From Rubripirellula reticaptiva (GTDB lineage Bacteria > Planctomycetota > Planctomycetia > Pirellulales > Pirellulaceae), in NCBI RefSeq assembly GCF_007860175.1, contig NZ_SJPX01000001.1, positions 434,001-498,000 on the forward strand: DNA of 64,000 bases, read 5' to 3'. The position numbers and the translations under genes were made by a program. Under the pieces are notes generated by a model. The model worked only from the letters and a program-made list of their open reading frames with translations. It searched no databases and was not told the origin of the DNA. Each line of letters begins with the position of its first letter. The stretch's first letter is position 1. Below are positions 54,194-64,000 of this stretch, one piece after another.

Positions 54194-55855
54194 TTAGAAC
54201 TGGGTTTGATACTGGAAGTAGAAGAAGTCAGCATCGTTGCTGCTTGCTACGCCCGGTGTCGTCTTGTAGTAGTCGCCCGCATTGAAGTGCGAGTAGCCGA
54301 CCAACACGTTGTTCCGAGCGTTCAAGTTCACGTTGAACAACACGTCGATTTCTTGGCCAAGTTCTTTGTCACCCGCCGCATTGGCTGCGTTGTACGGCGC
54401 CATGGTAACACCGTACGGGGTGGTCGATTGGTCCAAGAAGAAGTGGTGGTACCACAACAGCAACGACACTTTTTTGCTGAACAACGGTGTGATGAACTGA
54501 GCATTGATGTCGTGCAAGTTGCGACGACCAAACAAGTCCATGAAACCGTTGTACTTGTGCGCAAGTGGGAACAAGTGATCAAAGCTGTCGTCACCGCGAG
54601 CTGCTGGGACGTCATCGCCACCCGATGCGTAGTCATACCAGAACCAAACGGTTGGCTTCCAATCGCCGAAGTCTAGCTTACGTCCCAAACCGCCCGTGAT
54701 GAACTCGGCGCTGTGATCGCCAAATCCAGGACTGTTCGATCCAAATTGGACGCCGCCTTCGAACTCGTACAACAGTCCACCATCGGTATCACCCGCTACT
54801 CGAGTACCAATCGTGTGGTAGTCGAAGTCGGCATCATCGTTGTTGTAACCAAGGTAATAGGCGTCAACCGTTCCGATATCCAAACCCTTGCGAGTTGCGT
54901 AGACACCATAGAACTGTTGATTTTCGTTGGCATCGTCGATTTTGTCTTCGGTCGACGCGTTTCGGTTGACCGGGTTGGTCCAAAATCCGTCGACGTCCCA
55001 GTTATCGCCGATGTAAGTTCCGCGCACACCTTGGAACGTGCGGCGGGTATTAGCCCAATCGAGTGGAGAAACTAAGCGCTGAGCCCCAAGCAACAATTCT
55101 TGACGTCCAACACGAAGCGTTAAGTCTTCGGTCAACTTGGTGTCCAAGAACAAGTTCTGGATCTCACCACGGTTCTCTTCGATCGGGCGATTGTTAAAAA
55201 TCTCGCCGCCCGAGTCGGCGTACAAATACTCACCGTAAAGTCGGAAGTATTCATTGACCCGATAGTTGGCAAAGAACCGCAAACGGGTCAGCCAAAAATC
55301 ATCATCGCGGCCCGTCAAACCGAGGCCGCGCATGTTGTTTTCATCGTGGTAACGCACACGCGCTTCGCCACCAATGTCGAGCTTGCCGTCGTACATTCCC
55401 TTCAAAGAATCGCCCAGCATCGGCTTGCCGTCGTAGCAGGGGTCATTTAGATAGCTGAAGTCGTTCGCATAGAAGACGCCCTTGTAGGCACCCTTCATCT
55501 TGGCGGCAGCGGCCTCTTTCTTTTCCTTGGTGCAGCATGGCGTGTTGCAGCAGTTGCAAGGGGCCGCATCCATCAGAATCGGTTGCGAGTAGGTTTCGCT
55601 AGGGCTCGCGATGGGCGCGGGCATCACGTCGATCGATTCCTCGACCGGAGCGTCGATCGCAATCGGCTCGGGAATGGCAACCGACTCACCGCCATCCTGT
55701 AGCGGCGAGTAGACGGTGACTTGTTGGACTGATTCGCCCAGCGATAAGTCAACGATATCGGAAGGCGAGTCGGCGAAAGCCGCTTGCCCTGTCATGAGGC
55801 CGCTCAGCAGTAATCCTGCGAGCGCACGCCGGCGCGAATGGTAGAAAGTTTGCAT
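54194..55855 (-). CDS. outer-membrane alginate-export-type porin
   Basis: A 553-residue protein from the ATG at 55855 (AAGGAACC upstream) with a signal peptide (RALAGLLLSGLMTGQAAFA). A Pro/Glu/Ile-rich linker leads to a short cluster APCNCCNTPCCTKEKKE (five Cys in nine residues). From ~150 onward the strands have the alternating pattern of an 18-stranded beta barrel of the Alginate_exp family (LDIGGEARVRYHDENN, LTLRVGRQELLLGAQRLVSPLDWANTRRTFQGV, and a C-terminal FFYFQYQTQF ending in Phe, as in outer-membrane proteins). It probably lets anionic polymer, nitrate or other solutes pass. Faces away from the nitrate/heme locus across 590 bases. Confidence 0.85.
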   Translation of the reverse strand: MQTFYHSRRRALAGLLLSGLMTGQAAFADSPSDIVDLSLGESVQQVTVYSPLQDGGESVAIPEPIAIDAPVEESIDVMPAPIASPSETYSQPILMDAAPCNCCNTPCCTKEKKEAAAAKMKGAYKGVFYANDFSYLNDPCYDGKPMLGDSLKGMYDGKLDIGGEARVRYHDENNMRGLGLTGRDDDFWLTRLRFFANYRVNEYFRLYGEYLYADSGGEIFNNRPIEENRGEIQNLFLDTKLTEDLTLRVGRQELLLGAQRLVSPLDWANTRRTFQGVRGTYIGDNWDVDGFWTNPVNRNASTEDKIDDANENQQFYGVYATRKGLDIGTVDAYYLGYNNDDADFDYHTIGTRVAGDTDGGLLYEFEGGVQFGSNSPGFGDHSAEFITGGLGRKLDFGDWKPTVWFWYDYASGGDDVPAARGDDSFDHLFPLAHKYNGFMDLFGRRNLHDINAQFITPLFSKKVSLLLWYHHFFLDQSTTPYGVTMAPYNAANAAGDKELGQEIDVLFNVNLNARNNVLVGYSHFNAGDYYKTTPGVASSNDADFFYFQYQTQF

Positions 55856-56445
55856 AGGGACGAGGTTCCTTCCTCTAGTGAGATTGGTCGGGTCTGATGG
55901 CGAATAAACGAGACTGGGGCGATGGATTAAAGCCAAGTCGTTGCGATCCGCCTGAATCAACAACCTTTTGCCAACCGATCCATGGCGGCAACGCGACACT
56001 CTCCAACTCCGGCGTGCTGGTGTGCATCTTGGATCAGATATCGGCGTTCACGATTGAAATACGTGACGTCGTTTCGACTGACACAACATCCGAAACATTT
56101 GCTGCAATCCGAACAACCGATCAACTCGAAGTGCCCTGTCCACGCGCAATCGCTGCATCCCAGATATGCAGGAGCAGGAAACGGCTCAACCCAAAACCGG
56201 CGGTTTGGCTACCTGAGACGCAATTGCGTGGTGTTTAGCGGAGCCAATTTTGACTTAGCCCGTGTGAATCCGTGTTTCACAGGCAGGCGGTACGTCGGTT
56301 GCTTCTCGAGATCGATCGATATGCGTCGTTGATGCACAGGTATCGGTGTGTCACCGCGACGGTTCGCTAGGCGGAGCGATCCCTATAAAAATTCTACGAG
56401 GCTATTCCAGCCGCGTTGTTTGATTGCACCAAGGGAACTTCGCAT
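55856..56445. other. 590-base divergent spacer, no confident gene
   Basis: Lies between the leftward porin and the rightward reductase fusion, so it should carry both promoters. A plus frame at 55897-56238 (113 codons) is open but its composition is not protein-like. An A/T patch around 56388-56398 (TATAAAAATTCT) might serve as a -10 region for the fusion gene. No repeat or RNA gene seen. Confidence 0.45.
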
Positions 56446-58485
56446 TTGTCGATCGCGACCGAGAACAAGTCACTGCCGCCCACATTCGCCGCGAACACAT
56501 CGCTCGTTCGAACGAGACTGCTGATCGTTGGTGGAGGAATGACTGCACATCAGCTTTGTCGGCAATTGGTTAACAGCGGTGCGATTAAAAACTTTGATGT
56601 CACGATCTTTGGCAGCGAGTCCAGGTTGGCTTATGATCGCGTCAACTTATCTCGGATGTTTGAAGGGCATGGCGAGACAGGCCTGCTGCTAGCCCGTCGC
56701 GATTGGTACGACGAACACGAAATCGAATTCAAAACGAATTGTGTCATCAAGCACCTCGATCGCTCAGCACGCAAGATTGTTGACGATCACGGCAACCACT
56801 ATCCCTACGACAAGTTGGTACTGGCAACCGGCTCGCGAGCGTTCGTCCCACCGGTCCCAGGAAGTGACTGCGAAGGAGTGTTCGTTTACCGAACCATCGA
56901 TGATCTAGAAAGAATTCATCACCACATCACTCAACGTAAAGCCACCGTTGGCGCCGTAATCGGCGGCGGACTACTTGGCCTGGAGGCCGCAAAAATCCTG
57001 CGAGATCGCGGGCTGCAAACATCCGTGATTGAAATGGCACCAGGGCTAATGCCCCGGCAACTCGACCGAGACGGTGCCGCCAGATTGAAACAGCATGTCG
57101 AGTCAATGGGCGTCGACGTCCATTTGGTTCGGCGTACAGAATCGATCAAGACCAATCAGATGGGGCAATTGACGATCCACTTCGGAAATGCGGACCCGAT
57201 CAACGTCGATGTTTTGATCATCGCGGCCGGCGTGCGGCCGAACGATTCCCTCGCTCGTGAATCAGACTTGGCGGTGGGCCCCAGGGGCGGCATCGCCGTC
57301 GACGCGAGATTGCAAACGAAGGATCCCAACGTGTTTGCCATCGGCGAATGCTGTAGTTTTCGCGATCACATCTATGGGTTGGTTGCACCGTGTTACCGGA
57401 TGGCCGATGTGTTGGCCAGTCGGCTAAGCGGTCAGGAAATCATGTTCCAAGGTGCCGATGAGTCAGCCGAACTAAAATTGCTAGGCGTCCAAGTCGTCAC
57501 GCTCGGCCGCGTAATCGGCGAATCAACCAACGGTATCGTGCTGGCTCATCGTGACGATCAATCGTATCGAAAAATAATAATCGAACGAGGAAAGTTGGTT
57601 GGCGCCGCGTGCGTGGGACCATGGGAAAGCGTTCCGCAGATTCGTCAAGCAATCGCCAAACAGAAAATGATCTGGCCGTTGCAACGGTCACGTTTCCTGC
57701 GGACGGGATCGCCTTGGGCGCTCGGTGATGCGCTGCCGATTTCCCTTTGGCCCGCCGATGCAATCGTTTGTAGTTGCCTGGGTGTGACGCGAGGCCAGAT
57801 CAGCCAAGCCGTCATCGACGACCAAACAGATGTCGACGAAATTGCTCGCGTCACCGGCGCATCAAGCGCATGCGGCAGTTGCCGATCGCTGTTATGTGAG
57901 ATGACCGGAAGAGACTCGTCGTCGAAGCCGGCGGCGGGTTCGAAAACGATGTTAGCGGCTTCGATCGTGGCGGCAGTGACTGCACTGCTGTACTTCACAG
58001 TTCCTGCGCCAAAATTTGCCACCAGTGTCACCGATGCATGGCGTGACATTGATGTGCTTTGGCGAAACGACTTTCCTCGTCAAGTGACCGGATACACGAC
58101 ACTCAGTCTGACATTAGTCGGGCTGACGTTTTCTCTACGAAAGCGATTGCAGTGGTTTCAATTTGGAACCTACGCATTTTGGCGTTCAGTGCATGCCGTA
58201 CTCGGTGTCTTGGTCATCATCAGCATCGCTGTCCATACCGGGTTACGAATGGGCGAGAACCTAAATTTCATTTTGGCGGCAACCTTCTTGAGCGTTGCCG
58301 CCGTTGGATCGCTCGCAGGATTTGCCAGCGGAATGGAATCGCGAACCACCGGTGCCACCGCCATGTTCATTCGGCGATGGCGCCCCAGGTTGACGCAAGT
58401 GCATACGTGGTTGTTCTGGCCACTGCCCGCTTTGGTGGTATTGCACATCGTTTCCTTCTATTGGTTCGCCGACGGTGGAAATTGA
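56446..58485 (+). CDS. NirB-like FAD reductase + Bfd [2Fe-2S] + membrane cytochrome b-like fusion
   Basis: A 679-residue protein from the TTG at 56446 (AAGGGA 9 bases upstream; TTG at 56416 also open). Residues ~23-410 are a pyridine-nucleotide/FAD reductase like the NirB/NasB N-terminus: LLIVGGGMTAH, LVLATGS, VGAVIGGGLLGLEAAK, VFAIGECCSF. Residues ~438-485 are a Bfd-like [2Fe-2S] domain, VCSCLGVTRGQISQAV through SACGSC (Cys 442, 444, 476, 479). Residues ~500-679 form four or five membrane helices with His at ~583, 597, 653 and 667, matching paired heme ligands of cytochrome-b/ferric-reductase type. The siroheme/4Fe-4S reductase part of NirB is absent. Stop is 1 base before the cytochrome c ATG. 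Confidence 0.8.
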   Translation: MSIATENKSLPPTFAANTSLVRTRLLIVGGGMTAHQLCRQLVNSGAIKNFDVTIFGSESRLAYDRVNLSRMFEGHGETGLLLARRDWYDEHEIEFKTNCVIKHLDRSARKIVDDHGNHYPYDKLVLATGSRAFVPPVPGSDCEGVFVYRTIDDLERIHHHITQRKATVGAVIGGGLLGLEAAKILRDRGLQTSVIEMAPGLMPRQLDRDGAARLKQHVESMGVDVHLVRRTESIKTNQMGQLTIHFGNADPINVDVLIIAAGVRPNDSLARESDLAVGPRGGIAVDARLQTKDPNVFAIGECCSFRDHIYGLVAPCYRMADVLASRLSGQEIMFQGADESAELKLLGVQVVTLGRVIGESTNGIVLAHRDDQSYRKIIIERGKLVGAACVGPWESVPQIRQAIAKQKMIWPLQRSRFLRTGSPWALGDALPISLWPADAIVCSCLGVTRGQISQAVIDDQTDVDEIARVTGASSACGSCRSLLCEMTGRDSSSKPAAGSKTMLAASIVAAVTALLYFTVPAPKFATSVTDAWRDIDVLWRNDFPRQVTGYTTLSLTLVGLTFSLRKRLQWFQFGTYAFWRSVHAVLGVLVIISIAVHTGLRMGENLNFILAATFLSVAAVGSLAGFASGMESRTTGATAMFIRRWRPRLTQVHTWLFWPLPALVVLHIVSFYWFADGGN

Positions 58486-58486
58486 A

Positions 58487-59875
58487 ATGCAGACAAGATG
58501 GTTTGCAGGACAGGTGAGTCAGTGGTGGTTGTGGTCGGGCCTCAATCTTGCGTTGATCGCGTATTTTGGCTACGCCTTCGTTGCCCCCCCGTCGTCGGTC
58601 AAAGCTTCATTACTGCCTGGCGAGACCACTCATGGCCACTATCAAATCGAACTGGATTGCAACGCATGTCATCTTGCGGCCGACGATCCCGAGCGTCATT
58701 CCGCCGGCAACGTGATGACGGATGCGTGCAACCGATGCCACGCCAATCAATTGACTCTCGTCAACGACACACACCCAGCGAAAAAGTTTCGCGACCCCAG
58801 CAATGCGGATTTGCTGGAAATCTTGGACGCGCAAGACTGTCTGACTTGTCACCGCGAACACGTGCCCGAACAGACCGTGTCGATGGGTTTGACACTTCCA
58901 ACGGACTACTGCTGGCACTGTCACGAAGATATCGGCGACGCCCGCTCATCCCATGCTGAAATGAAATTCGATTCGTGCGCAACGGCCGGTTGCCACAACT
59001 ATCACGATAACCGAGCTCTGTACGAAAAATTTCTAGATGTGCACTATGGCGAGGCGGATCATCTGGTATCGGCCATCGTTCCATCGAGAAATCTCAAGCA
59101 ACAGTGGATAGAACGGCACCCAGACAAGAGCCAACTTTATATCGCCGACGCGGACGGCCCAAGCAACGAACCAGCGGGATCGACCATCGAAACCGATTGG
59201 GCCGAGACAGCGCACGCAGCTGCAGGAGTCAACTGCGGCGAATGCCACAATGAAAAAAAAGCCTCCGGTGAAACGTCCTGGAACGACCGAGTCGCGATGT
59301 CGGTTTGCGAGCAATGTCACAAGTCCGAGGTTGATTCATTTCAAACCGGAAAGCATGGGATGCGGTTGTCCATCGGAATGTCACCGATGCTGCCTTCGTT
59401 AGCACGATTGCCAATGCACGCTGGCGCTTCGCATCAAGAACTGAACTGCAACGCGTGTCATGAAGGCCATCGATTTGACACCCGGCATGCGGCAGTGGAA
59501 GCCTGCCAGAAGTGCCATGCCGATTCTCACTCTTTGGCTTATGCGGATTCCTCTCACGCCCAGCTTTGGCGATCCGAAATGGCTGGCGAATTGCCGACCG
59601 GAAGCGGCGTTTCGTGCGCCACTTGCCACCTGCCAAGGCTGACAGGCGACGACGGAATTTGGGTCAACCATGATCAAAACGCGGTATTGCGTCCAAGCGA
59701 GACGATGGCACGCGAAGTTTGTGGCCACTGCCATGGCCTTGAATACGCCCTTAGCGCGTTGGCCGACCCAGAACTAGCAATCTCTTGCTACGACCAACCG
59801 CCGCACATTCGAATCCGTTCCCTGCAAATGGCTCATGAATACTTCGAAGCCCGTCGTCAGAAGAGTTCCCGCTGA
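58487..59875 (+). CDS. membrane-anchored cytochrome c with eleven heme motifs
   Basis: A 462-residue protein beginning one base after the fusion gene's stop. One N-terminal helix (about 14-32, WWLWSGLNLALIAYFGYAF) anchors it; the rest is periplasmic. I count ten CxxCH motifs (C58, 81, 118, 142, 250, 274, 321, 340, 377, 412) and one CATAGCH (C164, a CX4CH site), plus many spare His for axial ligation. Paired spacing in places recalls cytochrome c3/NapC-NrfH-like multiheme proteins. It probably carries electrons away from (or to) the membrane cytochrome b of the preceding fusion. Terminal partner unknown. Confidence 0.88.
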   Translation: MQTRWFAGQVSQWWLWSGLNLALIAYFGYAFVAPPSSVKASLLPGETTHGHYQIELDCNACHLAADDPERHSAGNVMTDACNRCHANQLTLVNDTHPAKKFRDPSNADLLEILDAQDCLTCHREHVPEQTVSMGLTLPTDYCWHCHEDIGDARSSHAEMKFDSCATAGCHNYHDNRALYEKFLDVHYGEADHLVSAIVPSRNLKQQWIERHPDKSQLYIADADGPSNEPAGSTIETDWAETAHAAAGVNCGECHNEKKASGETSWNDRVAMSVCEQCHKSEVDSFQTGKHGMRLSIGMSPMLPSLARLPMHAGASHQELNCNACHEGHRFDTRHAAVEACQKCHADSHSLAYADSSHAQLWRSEMAGELPTGSGVSCATCHLPRLTGDDGIWVNHDQNAVLRPSETMAREVCGHCHGLEYALSALADPELAISCYDQPPHIRIRSLQMAHEYFEARRQKSSR

Positions 59876-59928
59876 CGACCAATCAATCCATTCCCTAGTT
59901 CCCTGCCCTACCCTTGGAGTTCTCTACG

Positions 59929-60585
59929 ATGAAACGACACAATTGCCCGAACATTTCGGCGCGACCTCAACGCCGTCGCGCTAAATCAATGCTTTCCGCA
60001 TTTGCAGTAACCGCGACTGCTGTTGCGATGCTTTGCACTACCGGATGTGGTGAACCTGCGGCTGCTTCGGCGACACCATCGGCTGGCATTACGCCGCAAA
60101 AGTTCGCTGATGGAGTCCACGCGGTGATGATGGCTGACCGAACCGTTTACGCCACGCACGTCGTCACCAACTTGAAAAAGCAATCGTCACCCGTTACAGC
60201 CGACGAATACTGGATGGACTCGACCAATGCGATTCCATTGCCGGCCCAAATGTTTCGCATGGGCGCCGAACTCGTCGACGAAAATCCCGAAGCGGGATTC
60301 ACGTATTCATTGCGCAGTGAATGGCCACTCAACGAGCAGCACAAAGCCAAAAGCGAGTTCGAAACGGCGGCGCTTAAGTACATCACTGCCAATCCGGGCG
60401 AGAACTATTACGGCGAAGAAGAACTTGGCGGCAACAAGTATTTCGTTGCGGTTTACCCCGATCGCGCCGTCGCTGAGGCATGTTGGACCTGCCACAACGA
60501 CCACCCCGATCGTGCCGCGGATTATCCCGAGTTCGGCAAGGACGATGTGATGGGTGGAGTTCTGGTACGTGTACCGATTCCATGA
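59929..60585 (+). CDS. Tll0287-like (DUF3365) heme lipoprotein
   Basis: A 218-residue protein starting at the ATG at 59929 (GGAG 11 bases ahead). A lipoprotein-type signal ends LCTTGC (Cys ~40). The domain matches DUF3365/Tll0287-like proteins: FADGVHAVMMADRTVYATHVV, IPLPAQMFRMGAELV, a central YSLRSEWPLN, and one heme motif CWTCHNDHP (185-189) near the C-terminus, with GGVLVRVPI at the end. The family is thought to sense redox or gas through c-type heme. Third gene of the rightward heme locus, 53 bases after the cytochrome c. Confidence 0.82.
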   Translation: MKRHNCPNISARPQRRRAKSMLSAFAVTATAVAMLCTTGCGEPAAASATPSAGITPQKFADGVHAVMMADRTVYATHVVTNLKKQSSPVTADEYWMDSTNAIPLPAQMFRMGAELVDENPEAGFTYSLRSEWPLNEQHKAKSEFETAALKYITANPGENYYGEEELGGNKYFVAVYPDRAVAEACWTCHNDHPDRAADYPEFGKDDVMGGVLVRVPIP

Positions 60586-60637
60586 CCTAGAGCCCTACTC
60601 AAATGCAAACTCAATCCATCACTTAGGAACATTCAAC

Positions 60638-61060
60638 ATGACACCACAGCAAATTACTCTCGTGCAGGACTCCTGGGCACAGGTGAAGCCCATCTCGGAA
60701 CAGGCCGCCGAATTATTCTACGGACGACTTTTCGAACTCGATCCGTCGCTGAAAACGCTCTTTAAAGGCGATATGAAGGACCAGGGAAAGAAGTTGATGG
60801 CTACCCTCAATCTCGCAGTCACATCGTTGACGAAATTGGAAACGATTCTAGCGGCAGTGCAAGAATTAGGACGTCGGCACGTTCAATACGGTGTGCCTGA
60901 TTCGAGCTACGCCACAGTGGGCGAAGCGCTGCTTTGGACGCTGGACAAAGGCCTGGGAGAAGCATTCACCGACGACGTCAAAGCCGCCTGGACCGAAACG
61001 TATTTGACGCTGAGCAACGTCATGCTTGACGCCGCGCACGACGCGCAGGCGGCAAGCTAG
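60638..61060 (+). CDS. single-domain globin
   Basis: A 140-residue globin from the ATG at 60638 (AGGAAC upstream; the longer frame from 60554 is unlikely). Globin landmarks: LFKGDMKDQGKKLMATL with CD1 Phe (~42) and a Gln (~49) at the distal E7 position, proximal His 81 in LGRRHVQYGV, and GEALLWTLDKGLGEAFTDDVKAAWTETY for helices G/H. The pattern is like bacterial (Vitreoscilla-type or flavohemoglobin N-domain) globins, without a reductase domain. Beside nitrate uptake genes it may bind NO or O2; inference. Confidence 0.88.
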   Translation: MTPQQITLVQDSWAQVKPISEQAAELFYGRLFELDPSLKTLFKGDMKDQGKKLMATLNLAVTSLTKLETILAAVQELGRRHVQYGVPDSSYATVGEALLWTLDKGLGEAFTDDVKAAWTETYLTLSNVMLDAAHDAQAAS

Positions 61061-61366: not shown

Positions 61367-62878
61367 ATGCAAATGCTTCACATCGGACTCCGAGCGCCTC
61401 ATCACTTGCTCCTGTTACTTCTGATGCTCGCATCGATTGCCGGTTGCAGCAGCAACGCAATCACGCTGGAAGATTTGGAGGCAGCGGCGGCAAAGCTGGA
61501 GAAAGCTGATGAAGAAAGAGTTGTCGCGGACGGCGAGACAGCTTCAAGTCCGACCGAAGAATCGGCCGTGACTGAGATTTTAAATATCGAAAAGCCGAAC
61601 TTAAAGTTTGGCTTTATCAAGTTGACGGATTGCGCGCCGCTGGTCATCGCCAAAGAAAAGGGCTACTTCGAAGACGAGGGGCTCAGTGTTGAAGTCGAGG
61701 CACAATCGAACTGGAAAATTCTTCTCGACCGAGTCATTGATGGCCAATTGGACGGCGCTCATATGTTGGCCGGACAACCGATTGGAGCCACGATCGGTAT
61801 CGGAACGACGTCACCGATCATCACCGCCTACAGCCTTGATTACAACGGGAACGGCATCACGGTCAGCAATGAAATCTGGACCAAGATGCAAGAGAACGAC
61901 CCCGAGCTGAAAAAGCCGCAGCCCAAGCATCCGATCTCGGCTAACTCGCTTAAGCCGATTGTTGATCAATACAAAAGAGATGGTAAAGATTTCAACATGG
62001 GCATGGTATTTCCCGTGTCGACGCACAACTATGAAATTCGCTACTGGCTAGCAGCGTCGGGAATCCATCCTGGTTTCTACAACGAGCAAAACATTCAAGG
62101 CACCGTAGACGCAGATGTGATCCTGTCGGTCACTCCTCCGCCACAAATGCCGTCGACCTTAGAAGCCGGCACGATTCTGGGCTACTGCGTCGGTGAACCC
62201 TGGAATCAGAAAGCCGTTGTCGATGGAATTGGTGTTCCCGTCACAACGAACTATGACATCTGGAAAAACAACCCCGAGAAAGTGTTCGGGGTTTCCGAGC
62301 AGTGGAACGAGAAGTATCCGAACACGCACATCGCCGTCGTCAAAGCGTTGATCCGAGCCGGCAAATGGCTCGATGAAAAAGACGCAGATGGCAACTTGGT
62401 GAATCGCCAGGAAGCTTGTCAGATTTTGAGTAAGAAGGACTACGTCGGAGCTGACGTGGGCGTGATCGAAAAATCCATGTTGGGAACGTTCGTCTTTCAG
62501 AAAAGCGACGTTCGACCGATGCCCGATTTCAACGTTTTCTTTGACCACCAGGCAAGCTTCCCTCACTACAGCGACTGCGTGTGGTTTCTAACCCAGATGC
62601 GTCGTTGGGGACAGATTACCGAACCCAAGCCGGCCAGTTGGTACGCCGAAACGGCCAAGAAAATCTACAAGCCGTCTATCTACCGCAAAGCTTCGGCGAT
62701 GCTGGTTGCCGAAGGCAAGGTCGACGCGGACGCGTTCCCGGCCGCCGACTACGACGGCTATCGCGAACCGACTTCGGAATTCATTGACGGCAACACCTAC
62801 GACGCAAAAGACCCAATCGGCTACATCAACAGCTTTACGATTGGGAATAAAGAAGATAGCACGCTCGAGAAGCAGTAG
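61367..62878 (+). CDS. nrtA: nitrate-type ABC transporter substrate-binding lipoprotein (NrtA-like)
   Basis: A 503-residue lipoprotein (two ATGs, 61367 and 61373) with signal ending LMLASIAGC. After a Glu/Ala-rich linker the NrtA fold begins [45 protein letters not shown], then [20 protein letters not shown] and a [12 protein letters not shown] segment. NrtA binds nitrate/nitrite with high affinity at the periplasmic face; the specific ligand residues (Trp, Gln, His, Lys pattern) are not verified. Followed by an NrtB permease after 211 bases. Confidence 0.9.
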
Positions 62879-63089
62879 CTCGAAAACAGCACGTGATGAG
62901 TCACTCGCTGACACTTCGACGGCAGCAAATGATCGCGACCGTCCATAGGCCGAACGTTCTCGATCGGTTGACCGCCTCAATCGGTCGAGTTTGTGAAGCG
63001 GCCATGAAGGGTCGGGTGCTGTGGTCCGGTGCCCGTCGCCCGGCCCGGCCGCGGATCGTTTTTTTTGAAACATACAAGGTTTGAGACTT

Positions 63090-64000
63090 ATGAACTGGCG
63101 TGGTAAAGCTCTTCGATTTTGTGAAGTCACGGGTATGCCCGTTCTAGAACCCTTTGTCCGGCTTGCTGCGGGAGAGGATCCCAAGGAGCAATTGGCAGGT
63201 ATCGCCAAGTATGTGCTGTTGCCAGCGGTTGCCGTCGCAATCTTTCTTGCGATGTGGTCAGCCGCAGCAAAAACGATCATCACCGAAAGTGGCGAATTGC
63301 CCAGCCCAACTGCCACTTGGCTGGCAGGTAAGGAGTTGTTCGCGATGCATCAACAACAACGCGCCGACGATGCGGCAAAGAAGCAAGACAAGTTAATGCA
63401 AGCTGTACAGTTCATGGTCGATGCCAAAAAGCTTGAACGCCGAGCGTCCTCGGCCAACGATACAGACAAAACAACTTTGCTTTCCAACGCTTTGATTTTA
63501 AAGAAAAAGGCCGTTCAAGCTGCCAACTATACGCCGACAAGTGCGCCCACATTTGTCGATCAGATCTTCACAAGTTTAAAGACCGTCTTCTTCGGATTCA
63601 TCCTTGCAACCGTGATCGCGGTGCCCGTAGGCGTGCTTTGCGGCATGAGTTCTTGGTTCAATGCGGCGATGACACCGTTTATCCAAATCTTCAAACCCGT
63701 GTCGCCACTTGCATGGCTTCCGCTTGCCGCGGTCGTGATCATTTGGGCGTACCGAAATTCACAGCCGGGCGAGACCTTCTTTGACAAAGCATTCTTGATC
63801 TCGGCGGCGACAGTTTCTCTTTGCTCGCTCTGGCCAACCTTGGTCAACACGACGCTCGGCGTCGCGAGCGTTGACAAAGATTACTTGAACGTTGCTCGCG
63901 TCTTGAAATTGTCTTGGTGGCAGAAGCTCTACAAGATCATCTTGCCAGCAAGTCTTCCCCTGATGTTCGCGGGACTTCGAATCAGTTTGGGTGTTGGTTG
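63090..64000 (+). CDS. nrtB: NrtB-like ABC transporter permease (partial, runs off window)
   Basis: An ATG at 63090 with AAGG 10 bases ahead opens a frame that continues to the window end (303 codons seen). A first helix (YVLLPAVAVAIFLAMW, ~41-56) and ITESGELPSPTATW are followed by a ~75-residue Lys/Ala/Asp-rich, hydrophilic stretch, then the BPD_transp_1 core: SLKTVFFGFILATVIAVPVGVLCGM, PVSPLAWLPLAAVVIIW and the EAA-loop-like NVARVLKLSWWQKLYKIILPASLP. It is the membrane component for the nitrate-type importer. The soluble insert between the first and second helices is larger than in the roughly 280-residue cyanobacterial NrtB. Confidence 0.88.
   Translation, partial: MNWRGKALRFCEVTGMPVLEPFVRLAAGEDPKEQLAGIAKYVLLPAVAVAIFLAMWSAAAKTIITESGELPSPTATWLAGKELFAMHQQQRADDAAKKQDKLMQAVQFMVDAKKLERRASSANDTDKTTLLSNALILKKKAVQAANYTPTSAPTFVDQIFTSLKTVFFGFILATVIAVPVGVLCGMSSWFNAAMTPFIQIFKPVSPLAWLPLAAVVIIWAYRNSQPGETFFDKAFLISAATVSLCSLWPTLVNTTLGVASVDKDYLNVARVLKLSWWQKLYKIILPASLPLMFAGLRISLGVG

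Follow-up and report, generated by a model that had tools for sequence, protein, structure and literature searches.

Introduction

Enzymes of the NOX and ferric reductase type use cytoplasmic NAD(P)H and FAD, bind two b hemes through spaced pairs of His and pass electrons outward. Among nitrate assimilators, the narK-bjgb-flp-nasC operon of Bradyrhizobium japonicum includes, besides nitrate assimilation genes, those for an NAD(P)H flavoprotein and a globin, and protects the cell from nitric oxide (NO) (PMC4724949). For the Tll0287-type or sCache_heme proteins (PF11845), another report describes a measured signaling member that lacks an axial Cys, binds NO and releases it slowly. A measured stand-alone member does possess the Cys, and its release of NO was fast both with this residue and with Ala in its place; redox roles are assigned there to the stand-alone proteins on one Cys-bearing example (PMC12889525). 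Here we describe a four-gene locus, FUS-MHC-TLL-GLB, in the 7.85-Mb genome of Rubripirellula reticaptiva. It lies in a window of 64,000 nucleotides, i.e., the whole stretch of DNA analyzed, at positions 434001-498000 on contig C1.

The locus resembles the B. japonicum operon in that nitrate assimilation genes adjoin those for an NAD(P)H flavoprotein and a single-domain globin; a coupling of NO detoxification to nitrate assimilation would be a further common trait. It differs in that the sections consulted on the B. japonicum operon mention neither a membrane heme domain nor a multiheme cytochrome or a Tll0287 protein (PMC4724949), and in that the conserved core of our module is FUS-MHC-TLL, with the globin being optional. 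The single parts of the module belong to known families. Apparently undescribed are the fusion in FUS, a putative HAO-like electron wire that has no catalytic heme, the constant presence of TLL as its partner, and the occurrence of the whole as a cassette across phyla. We found no description of the FUS-MHC-TLL combination in the open-licence PMC literature, as judged from titles, the openings of abstracts and two papers in part.

Results and Discussion

The FUS-MHC-TLL core is conserved within Pirellulaceae and across phyla

A check of the open reading frames (ORFs) agreed with a preliminary description of the window as to the starts and stops of the four genes, their common plus strand and the gaps of 1, 53 and 52 bases between them. 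That description had taken the products for a reductase fusion, an 11-heme cytochrome c, a Tll0287-like heme protein and a globin, and Pfam matches for each part bore out these types. It had also named conservation of the gene order as a point on which its proposal could fail; the order holds in Pirellulaceae and reaches other phyla.

Among 199 Pirellulaceae genomes searched, 38 have the FUS fusion, one copy of which is split across two ORFs. MHC and TLL lie beside FUS in 38/38 of these loci and GLB in 31/38; two of the seven loci without GLB (L052 and L058) stop at a contig edge. The order FUS-MHC-TLL-GLB is found in 30/38 loci and FUS-MHC-TLL in 37/38, and in L054 TLL-GLB is placed before FUS-MHC. 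The occurrence of the module is patchy: of the 13 Rubripirellula genomes drawn, 2 have it. A scan of one genome collection with an MHC profile yielded 290 relatives, the best 80 of which were kept, and the 80-locus counts given hereafter rest on these. The FUS fusion gene adjoins MHC in 80/80 loci and TLL is present in 78/80, both misses lying at contig ends. These loci, many of them from metagenome bins, belong to Planctomycetota, Verrucomicrobiota, Lentisphaerota, Poribacteria, Myxococcota (one locus) and Pseudomonadota. The Pirellulaceae and 80-locus counts are not independent, because the 38 loci and the planctomycete share of the 80 come largely from the same species. The conservation of gene order far exceeds chance.

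In an MHC tree of 63 rows, Planctomycetota, Lentisphaerota and Poribacteria form one group each. Two changes are required for Pseudomonadota and four for Verrucomicrobiota, a pattern consistent with an ancient unit that has undergone some transfer. A profile of the FUS membrane domain matched 11 of 392 genomes drawn evenly from the phylum, four of them weakly, indicating that this domain is rare in the phylum outside some groups. The alignments comprised 37/38 MHC rows (A1), 32/39 FUS rows (A2) and 31/39 TLL rows (A3), and two chosen subsets of near and distant loci, A5 (81 rows) and A6 (57 rows).

Two variations of the layout were observed. In L057 (genome G036), FUS and TLL are each split in two ORFs and MHC and GLB are intact, which reflects either a decaying copy or assembly errors. 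A gene for a small monoheme cytochrome c is present in 21/80 loci, among them L114, L115, L116, L121, L127, L129, L136, L153 and L156, mostly directly after TLL; two of the products were typed by Pfam. This cytochrome is possibly an extra electron carrier of the module.

FUS combines a NirB-like dehydrogenase and a membrane domain that has two His pairs

FUS has Pfam matches to Pyr_redox_2 (7e-55), Rubredoxin_C and Fer2_BFD, and its residues ~24-490 constitute a NirB-like NAD(P)H/FAD dehydrogenase with a BFD-type [2Fe-2S] domain. With the NirB model TIGR02374 it scores 439 bits, below the cut-off of 578, and the match is confined to FUS residues 25-493 and the first 471 of 794 model positions. 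Neither Pfam nor TIGR02374 detected a siroheme half or NIR_SIR domain in FUS. As the match is partial, below cut-off and devoid of NIR_SIR, we do not count FUS among the NirB nitrite reductases. In place of the siroheme half, FUS has a C-terminal membrane domain with two HX13H pairs, H583/H597 and H653/H667, which are predicted to hold two b hemes. The BFD cysteines 442, 444, 476 and 479 are kept in 91/91 aligned sequences, as are H583, H597 and H653, and H667 is kept in 90/91; these counts omit six short pieces (two of L057, and those of L106, L128, L148 and L155).

An AlphaFold2 model of the membrane domain is a bundle of long helices (pLDDT 88). Foldseek gave no match at E <= 0.001 and VIA-align none above the background of helical bundles, and we thus refrained from naming a fold family. 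Pfam searches gave no match of this domain to the NOX/ferric reductase family, only a sub-threshold hit to DUF4405. In principle FUS would work like the NOX and ferric reductases, from which it differs by a dehydrogenase of the NirB, or pyridine nucleotide-disulphide, type that includes a BFD cluster. The path from NAD(P)H through flavin, [2Fe-2S] and heme b to c hemes that the preliminary description had outlined is consistent with the motifs present in FUS and MHC.

MHC lacks the catalytic-heme motif of its relatives and is probably an electron wire

MHC, which has a Pfam match to Cytochrom_c3_2, is composed of a cytochrome c3-like, pentaheme N-terminal half and a hexaheme C-terminal half of the HAO/NrfA superfamily. 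The count of 11 hemes proposed earlier was confirmed: ten CXXCH motifs and one CX4CH motif are identical in 81/81 aligned sequences, including that of the window. A hydrophobic N-terminal helix would anchor the protein in the membrane and place it in the periplasm.

MHC resembles HAO, octaheme nitrite reductase and NrfA in that its hemes 6-11 align with hemes 2, 3, 5, 6, 7 and 8 of an HAO-like protein. The predicted fold of its C-terminal half is similar to that of HAO/NrfA, and the arrangement of the non-catalytic hemes is shared; most of residues 44-178 were poorly modeled by AlphaFold2. MHC differs from these enzymes by the added N-terminal pentaheme part and by a missing catalytic-heme motif. 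Profile alignments with two HAO-like sets revealed neither CXXCH nor CXXCK at the place of the catalytic heme in the MHC of the window, as the catalytic CXXCH of HAO aligns to a motif-free stretch. The region between MHC hemes 7 and 8 contains zero Cys in 80/81 sequences, and one stray Cys in L047. An NrfA set gave short local alignments only, which have no bearing on this analysis. The C-terminal part also has six additional invariant His residues, equal in number to its hemes, as would suit bis-His electron-transfer hemes. Given that no heme motif stands at the catalytic place, MHC probably acts as an electron wire rather than as a nitrite reductase. It would be a clean case of a catalytic cytochrome family whose catalytic heme site has been lost and alongside which another heme protein has been retained.

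TLL is a stand-alone domain related to signaling proteins

TLL is a protein of 218 amino acids with a single Pfam domain, Tll0287-like (2.8e-18; 67 bits, cut-off 24.1), and a lipobox-like N-terminus. Like the described sCache_heme proteins (PMC12889525), it has a CXXCH motif, kept in 57/57 sequences. In these 57 sequences, Cys residues were found, reading from their positions, only in CXXCH and the N-terminal signal/lipobox region. The Cys presumed to be axial in canonical stand-alone forms is therefore missing from the module TLL. It was seen in 6/7 rows of another group, whose remaining row is a fragment.

In a tree of Tll0287-type domains, the 26 module rows make up one group (support 96/99) that stands beside (91/84) a group of six rows. 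By Pfam, these six are five signaling proteins, namely, a methyl-accepting chemotaxis protein, a HAMP protein, a histidine kinase and two protein kinases, and one stand-alone protein. The labels SIG and SA in the tree denote ORF lengths of >=280 and <280 amino acids and were checked by Pfam for the six sister rows only; L197, a module TLL fetched again, was left out. TLL thus differs from described members as a separate stand-alone clade that lacks the presumed axial Cys and is sister to a mainly signaling clade; it is accordingly stand-alone in build but sensor-like in sequence. Of two sequence-level features of NO-sensing sCache_heme proteins, TLL shares the absence of the axial Cys and not the fusion to a signaling module, none of which was detected by Pfam. 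Sequence searches of the PDB with TLL and its profiles found no Tll0287-type relative.

The R. reticaptiva genome also encodes an NrfA-family protein (C6:366100-367452), a flavohemoglobin (C6:728842-730059) and two more Tll0287-type proteins (C6:765899-766297 and C6:565092-565451). One of the latter two has a canonical axial-type Cys.

The module co-occurs with nitrate assimilation genes

The preliminary description had placed the locus right before nitrate importer genes, and an NrtA-like gene does start 306 bases after GLB. It opens a nitrate cluster continued by genes for a permease, two ATPases and a GAF-like protein (sub-cut-off), followed by reductase genes beyond the window. The proposed look past 64 kb revealed a nitrate reductase gene at 68764-71037 and a nitrite reductase gene at 71043-72863, in the numbering of the window continued past its end. 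The former codes for a molybdenum enzyme whose scores of 478-501 bits with the NasC, halobacterial NasA and Fdh-alpha models each fall short of the cut-off; we read it as an assimilatory nitrate reductase because NirA and the importer adjoin. The NirA family protein scores 892 bits (cut-off 523), and the CysJ-like reductase encoded after it 732 bits (cut-off 432).

This nitrate reductase is encoded in 36/38 module genomes, G063 and G176 lacking it, versus 54/161 Pirellulaceae genomes without the module (Fisher p about 1e-12, uncorrected for relatedness). The total is 90/199 rather than 94, as four hits of 33-36% identity in genomes without the module (G003, G022, G037 and G109) were not counted. 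The tie to nitrogen uptake suggested earlier therefore holds for nitrate. Among the 80 loci, 23 have a nearby NrtA gene at >=45% identity and 14 a NasT-like gene, two of which were typed as ANTAR. Outside Planctomycetota, 45 of 50 carriers encode an NrtA-like protein (E <= 1e-30), with identity reaching >=49% in 41, a count that has no matched control. The five others are three Poribacteria and two metagenome-assembled genomes (MAGs), one of Myxococcales and one of Hyphomicrobiaceae. These 50 represent 51 loci from other phyla, since L119, which has the same gene map as L118, was dropped; both are among the 80.

GLB has the pocket residues of NO dioxygenase globins

GLB, of 140 amino acids, matches the Pfam family Globin (5.9e-17), and its closest solved structures are 3wfw and 3s1i. 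Tyr28, Gln49 and His81 are invariant in 63/63 sequences, a count that omits one short globin (L128). We take these residues to be positions B10, E7 and F8, i.e., the distal pocket Tyr and Gln and the proximal His. This combination characterizes single-domain globins that act as NO dioxygenases, and GLB is thus a candidate for that activity. GLB is not the flavohemoglobin Hmp, as it is a globin only, reaches 69 of 432 bits and has no fused FNR-type reductase.

Globins of either family occur in 57/80 loci, 51 having the single-domain and seven the truncated form. Six loci with a truncated globin, two of which were typed as PF01152, have no single-domain globin; the seventh match, in L123, is weak (28% identity), and a single-domain globin is also present there. 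The truncated globin lies inside the gene run in five loci (L114, L125, L136, L144 and L150) and precedes an FNR-type reductase gene in three of them (L136, L144 and L150). In these three loci and in L138, all proteobacterial and with a truncated globin, the FNR-type reductase includes a ferredoxin domain of plant type, as judged from two typed copies; in these four loci the pair is possibly a split flavohemoglobin.

In three Verrucomicrobiota loci (L114, L125 and L129), TLL is preceded upstream by a gene for a regulator of the Rrf2 family. A firm assignment to NsrR was rejected, as the L114 copy, the sole one scored, ties between RirA and NsrR, both below cut-off.

A possible NADH-driven line to the periplasm

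We tentatively propose, as a reading that is quite possible though short of probable, that FUS-MHC-TLL forms an NADH-driven electron line, leading out of the cytoplasm into the periplasm, for the handling of NO or nitrite in nitrate assimilators; we infer both the substrate and the direction of electron flow. NAD(P)H would reduce the FAD of FUS, and the electrons would pass through [2Fe-2S] and the two membrane b hemes to the 11 hemes of MHC. MHC would hand them to TLL or, in some lineages, to the small monoheme cytochrome c. The open-type c heme of TLL may then bind and reduce NO, or nitrite. GLB, or the truncated globin in some lineages, would clear NO on the cytoplasmic side. The proposal draws on the core conserved across phyla and on the nitrate link; for NO it draws on the globins of two families, on the kinship of TLL with signaling domains and its missing axial Cys, and on the example of the B. 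japonicum operon. Nitrate assimilation is usually regarded as a cytoplasmic process; if confirmed, the module would give it a periplasmic arm powered by NADH, and would bear on the fate of NO, and possibly N2O, from nitrate-fed bacteria that do not denitrify.

In a more specific version, which we regard as doubtful, the module would be a split periplasmic N-oxide reductase: MHC would keep the wire, a docked TLL would supply the catalytic heme, and cytoplasmic NADH would drive the reduction of NO or nitrite. If true, this would represent a catalytic use of the sensor-type Cache fold.

Several observations weigh against the proposed NADH-driven line. By the thresholds used, 32 of the 54 loci of >=18 kb have no nearby nitrate gene, versus 22 that have one, and 23/80 loci have no recognized globin, some owing to a short contig. 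Hmp scores over cut-off in 20/38 module genomes, including that of the window, versus 32/161 others, and since it co-occurs with the module we rejected the idea that the globin substitutes for it. No NO-specific regulator could be assigned; the Rrf2 gene accompanies the module in three loci. As a stand-alone domain, TLL falls in the class to which redox roles are given in PMC12889525. Absence of the Cys is not enough by itself for an NO binder, because release stayed fast when the Cys was mutated in the stand-alone member (PMC12889525).

The module might instead mainly feed the nitrate enzymes. The FUS head would then serve the cytoplasmic nitrate reductase as a Flp/NasB-type diaphorase, and MHC and the hemes in the membrane would form an electron-balancing side branch. 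Flp of B. japonicum is required for growth on nitrate and thought to supply NasC (PMC4724949), and FUS and the N-terminal half of NirB are homologous. In L048-L051, all of one genus, the nitrate reductase ORF ends 78-229 bases ahead of the FUS ORF. Nevertheless, in that genus and in the genome of the window, a DmsB/DmsC-type fusion gene of its own adjoins the nitrate reductase. In the latter genome this gene, coding for an Fe-S protein fused to a membrane anchor, precedes the nitrate reductase gene within 66977-71037 of the continued numbering (L011:4977-9037), which suggests quinol, not NADH, as the donor. NirA likewise already has the CysJ-like reductase behind it, and 54 of the 90 Pirellulaceae genomes with this nitrate reductase do without the module. 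As MHC, TLL and the conservation of the His pairs in the membrane domain are also left unaccounted for, we consider this explanation unlikely.

Just as unlikely, in our estimate, is a periplasmic NO or redox sensor without bulk catalysis, in which TLL would sense and MHC-FUS would set or read its redox state. The sister relationship of TLL to the mainly signaling clade and the tight NO binding of the measured signaling member (PMC12889525) speak for a sensor. The one-domain TLL has no output domain, though, and an 11-heme wire with a dedicated NADH dehydrogenase would be costly if merely used for sensing.

The passage of electrons from NAD(P)H and flavin to two membrane b hemes also recalls the architecture of ferric reductases and NOX. 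The module could accordingly reduce ferric iron, or another metal or oxidant, outside the cytoplasm and supply iron to the iron-rich nitrate enzymes. Porins as neighbors are compatible with such a function, as is a weak similarity, at 36 bits against a cut-off of 192, between part of MHC and the decaheme model of the DmsE family. Yet the recurrent neighbors that were typed are nitrate, globin, cytochrome, reductase and porin genes, with no search made specifically for iron genes, and the globin and TLL would remain unexplained, making this function improbable.

Lastly, that MHC itself is an NrfA/HAO-type periplasmic nitrite or NO reductase, a form of the periplasmic nitrite/NO reduction raised in the preliminary description, is very improbable: the motif-free stretch at the catalytic place and the six extra His, which would suit bis-His hemes, argue otherwise, and we rejected MHC as a canonical reductase of this kind since the catalytic heme motif is absent.

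Genomic neighborhood

The genes of the module and their neighbors in the window are listed in Table 1.

Table 1. Positions of the module genes and adjoining features, numbered from the first nucleotide of the window
Feature	Position	Strand	Remarks
FUS	56446-58485	+	TTG start; longest ORF opens 30 bases upstream
MHC	58487-59875	+	Undecaheme cytochrome c
TLL	59929-60585	+	Tll0287-like (sCache_heme) c-type heme protein
GLB	60638-61060	+	Single-domain globin
NrtA-like nitrate-binding protein	61367-62878	+	NMT1_2 3.4e-93 (Pfam); opens nitrate cluster
ABC importer permease	63081-64000 (window end; continues to 64205 in the same numbering)	+	BPD_transp_1 1.4e-21
Alginate_exp-type outer-membrane porin	54194-55999	-	Pfam 9.2e-65; divergent from FUS

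Homologues of the porin are encoded in 11/38 Pirellulaceae loci, mostly in those that bear the importer. A porin cluster is also found in 11/54 distant loci, with two members typed to the Alginate_exp Pfam family. This porin is a recurrent neighbor and possibly part of the unit, and is a candidate for the channel that would let nitrate or nitrite through the outer membrane.

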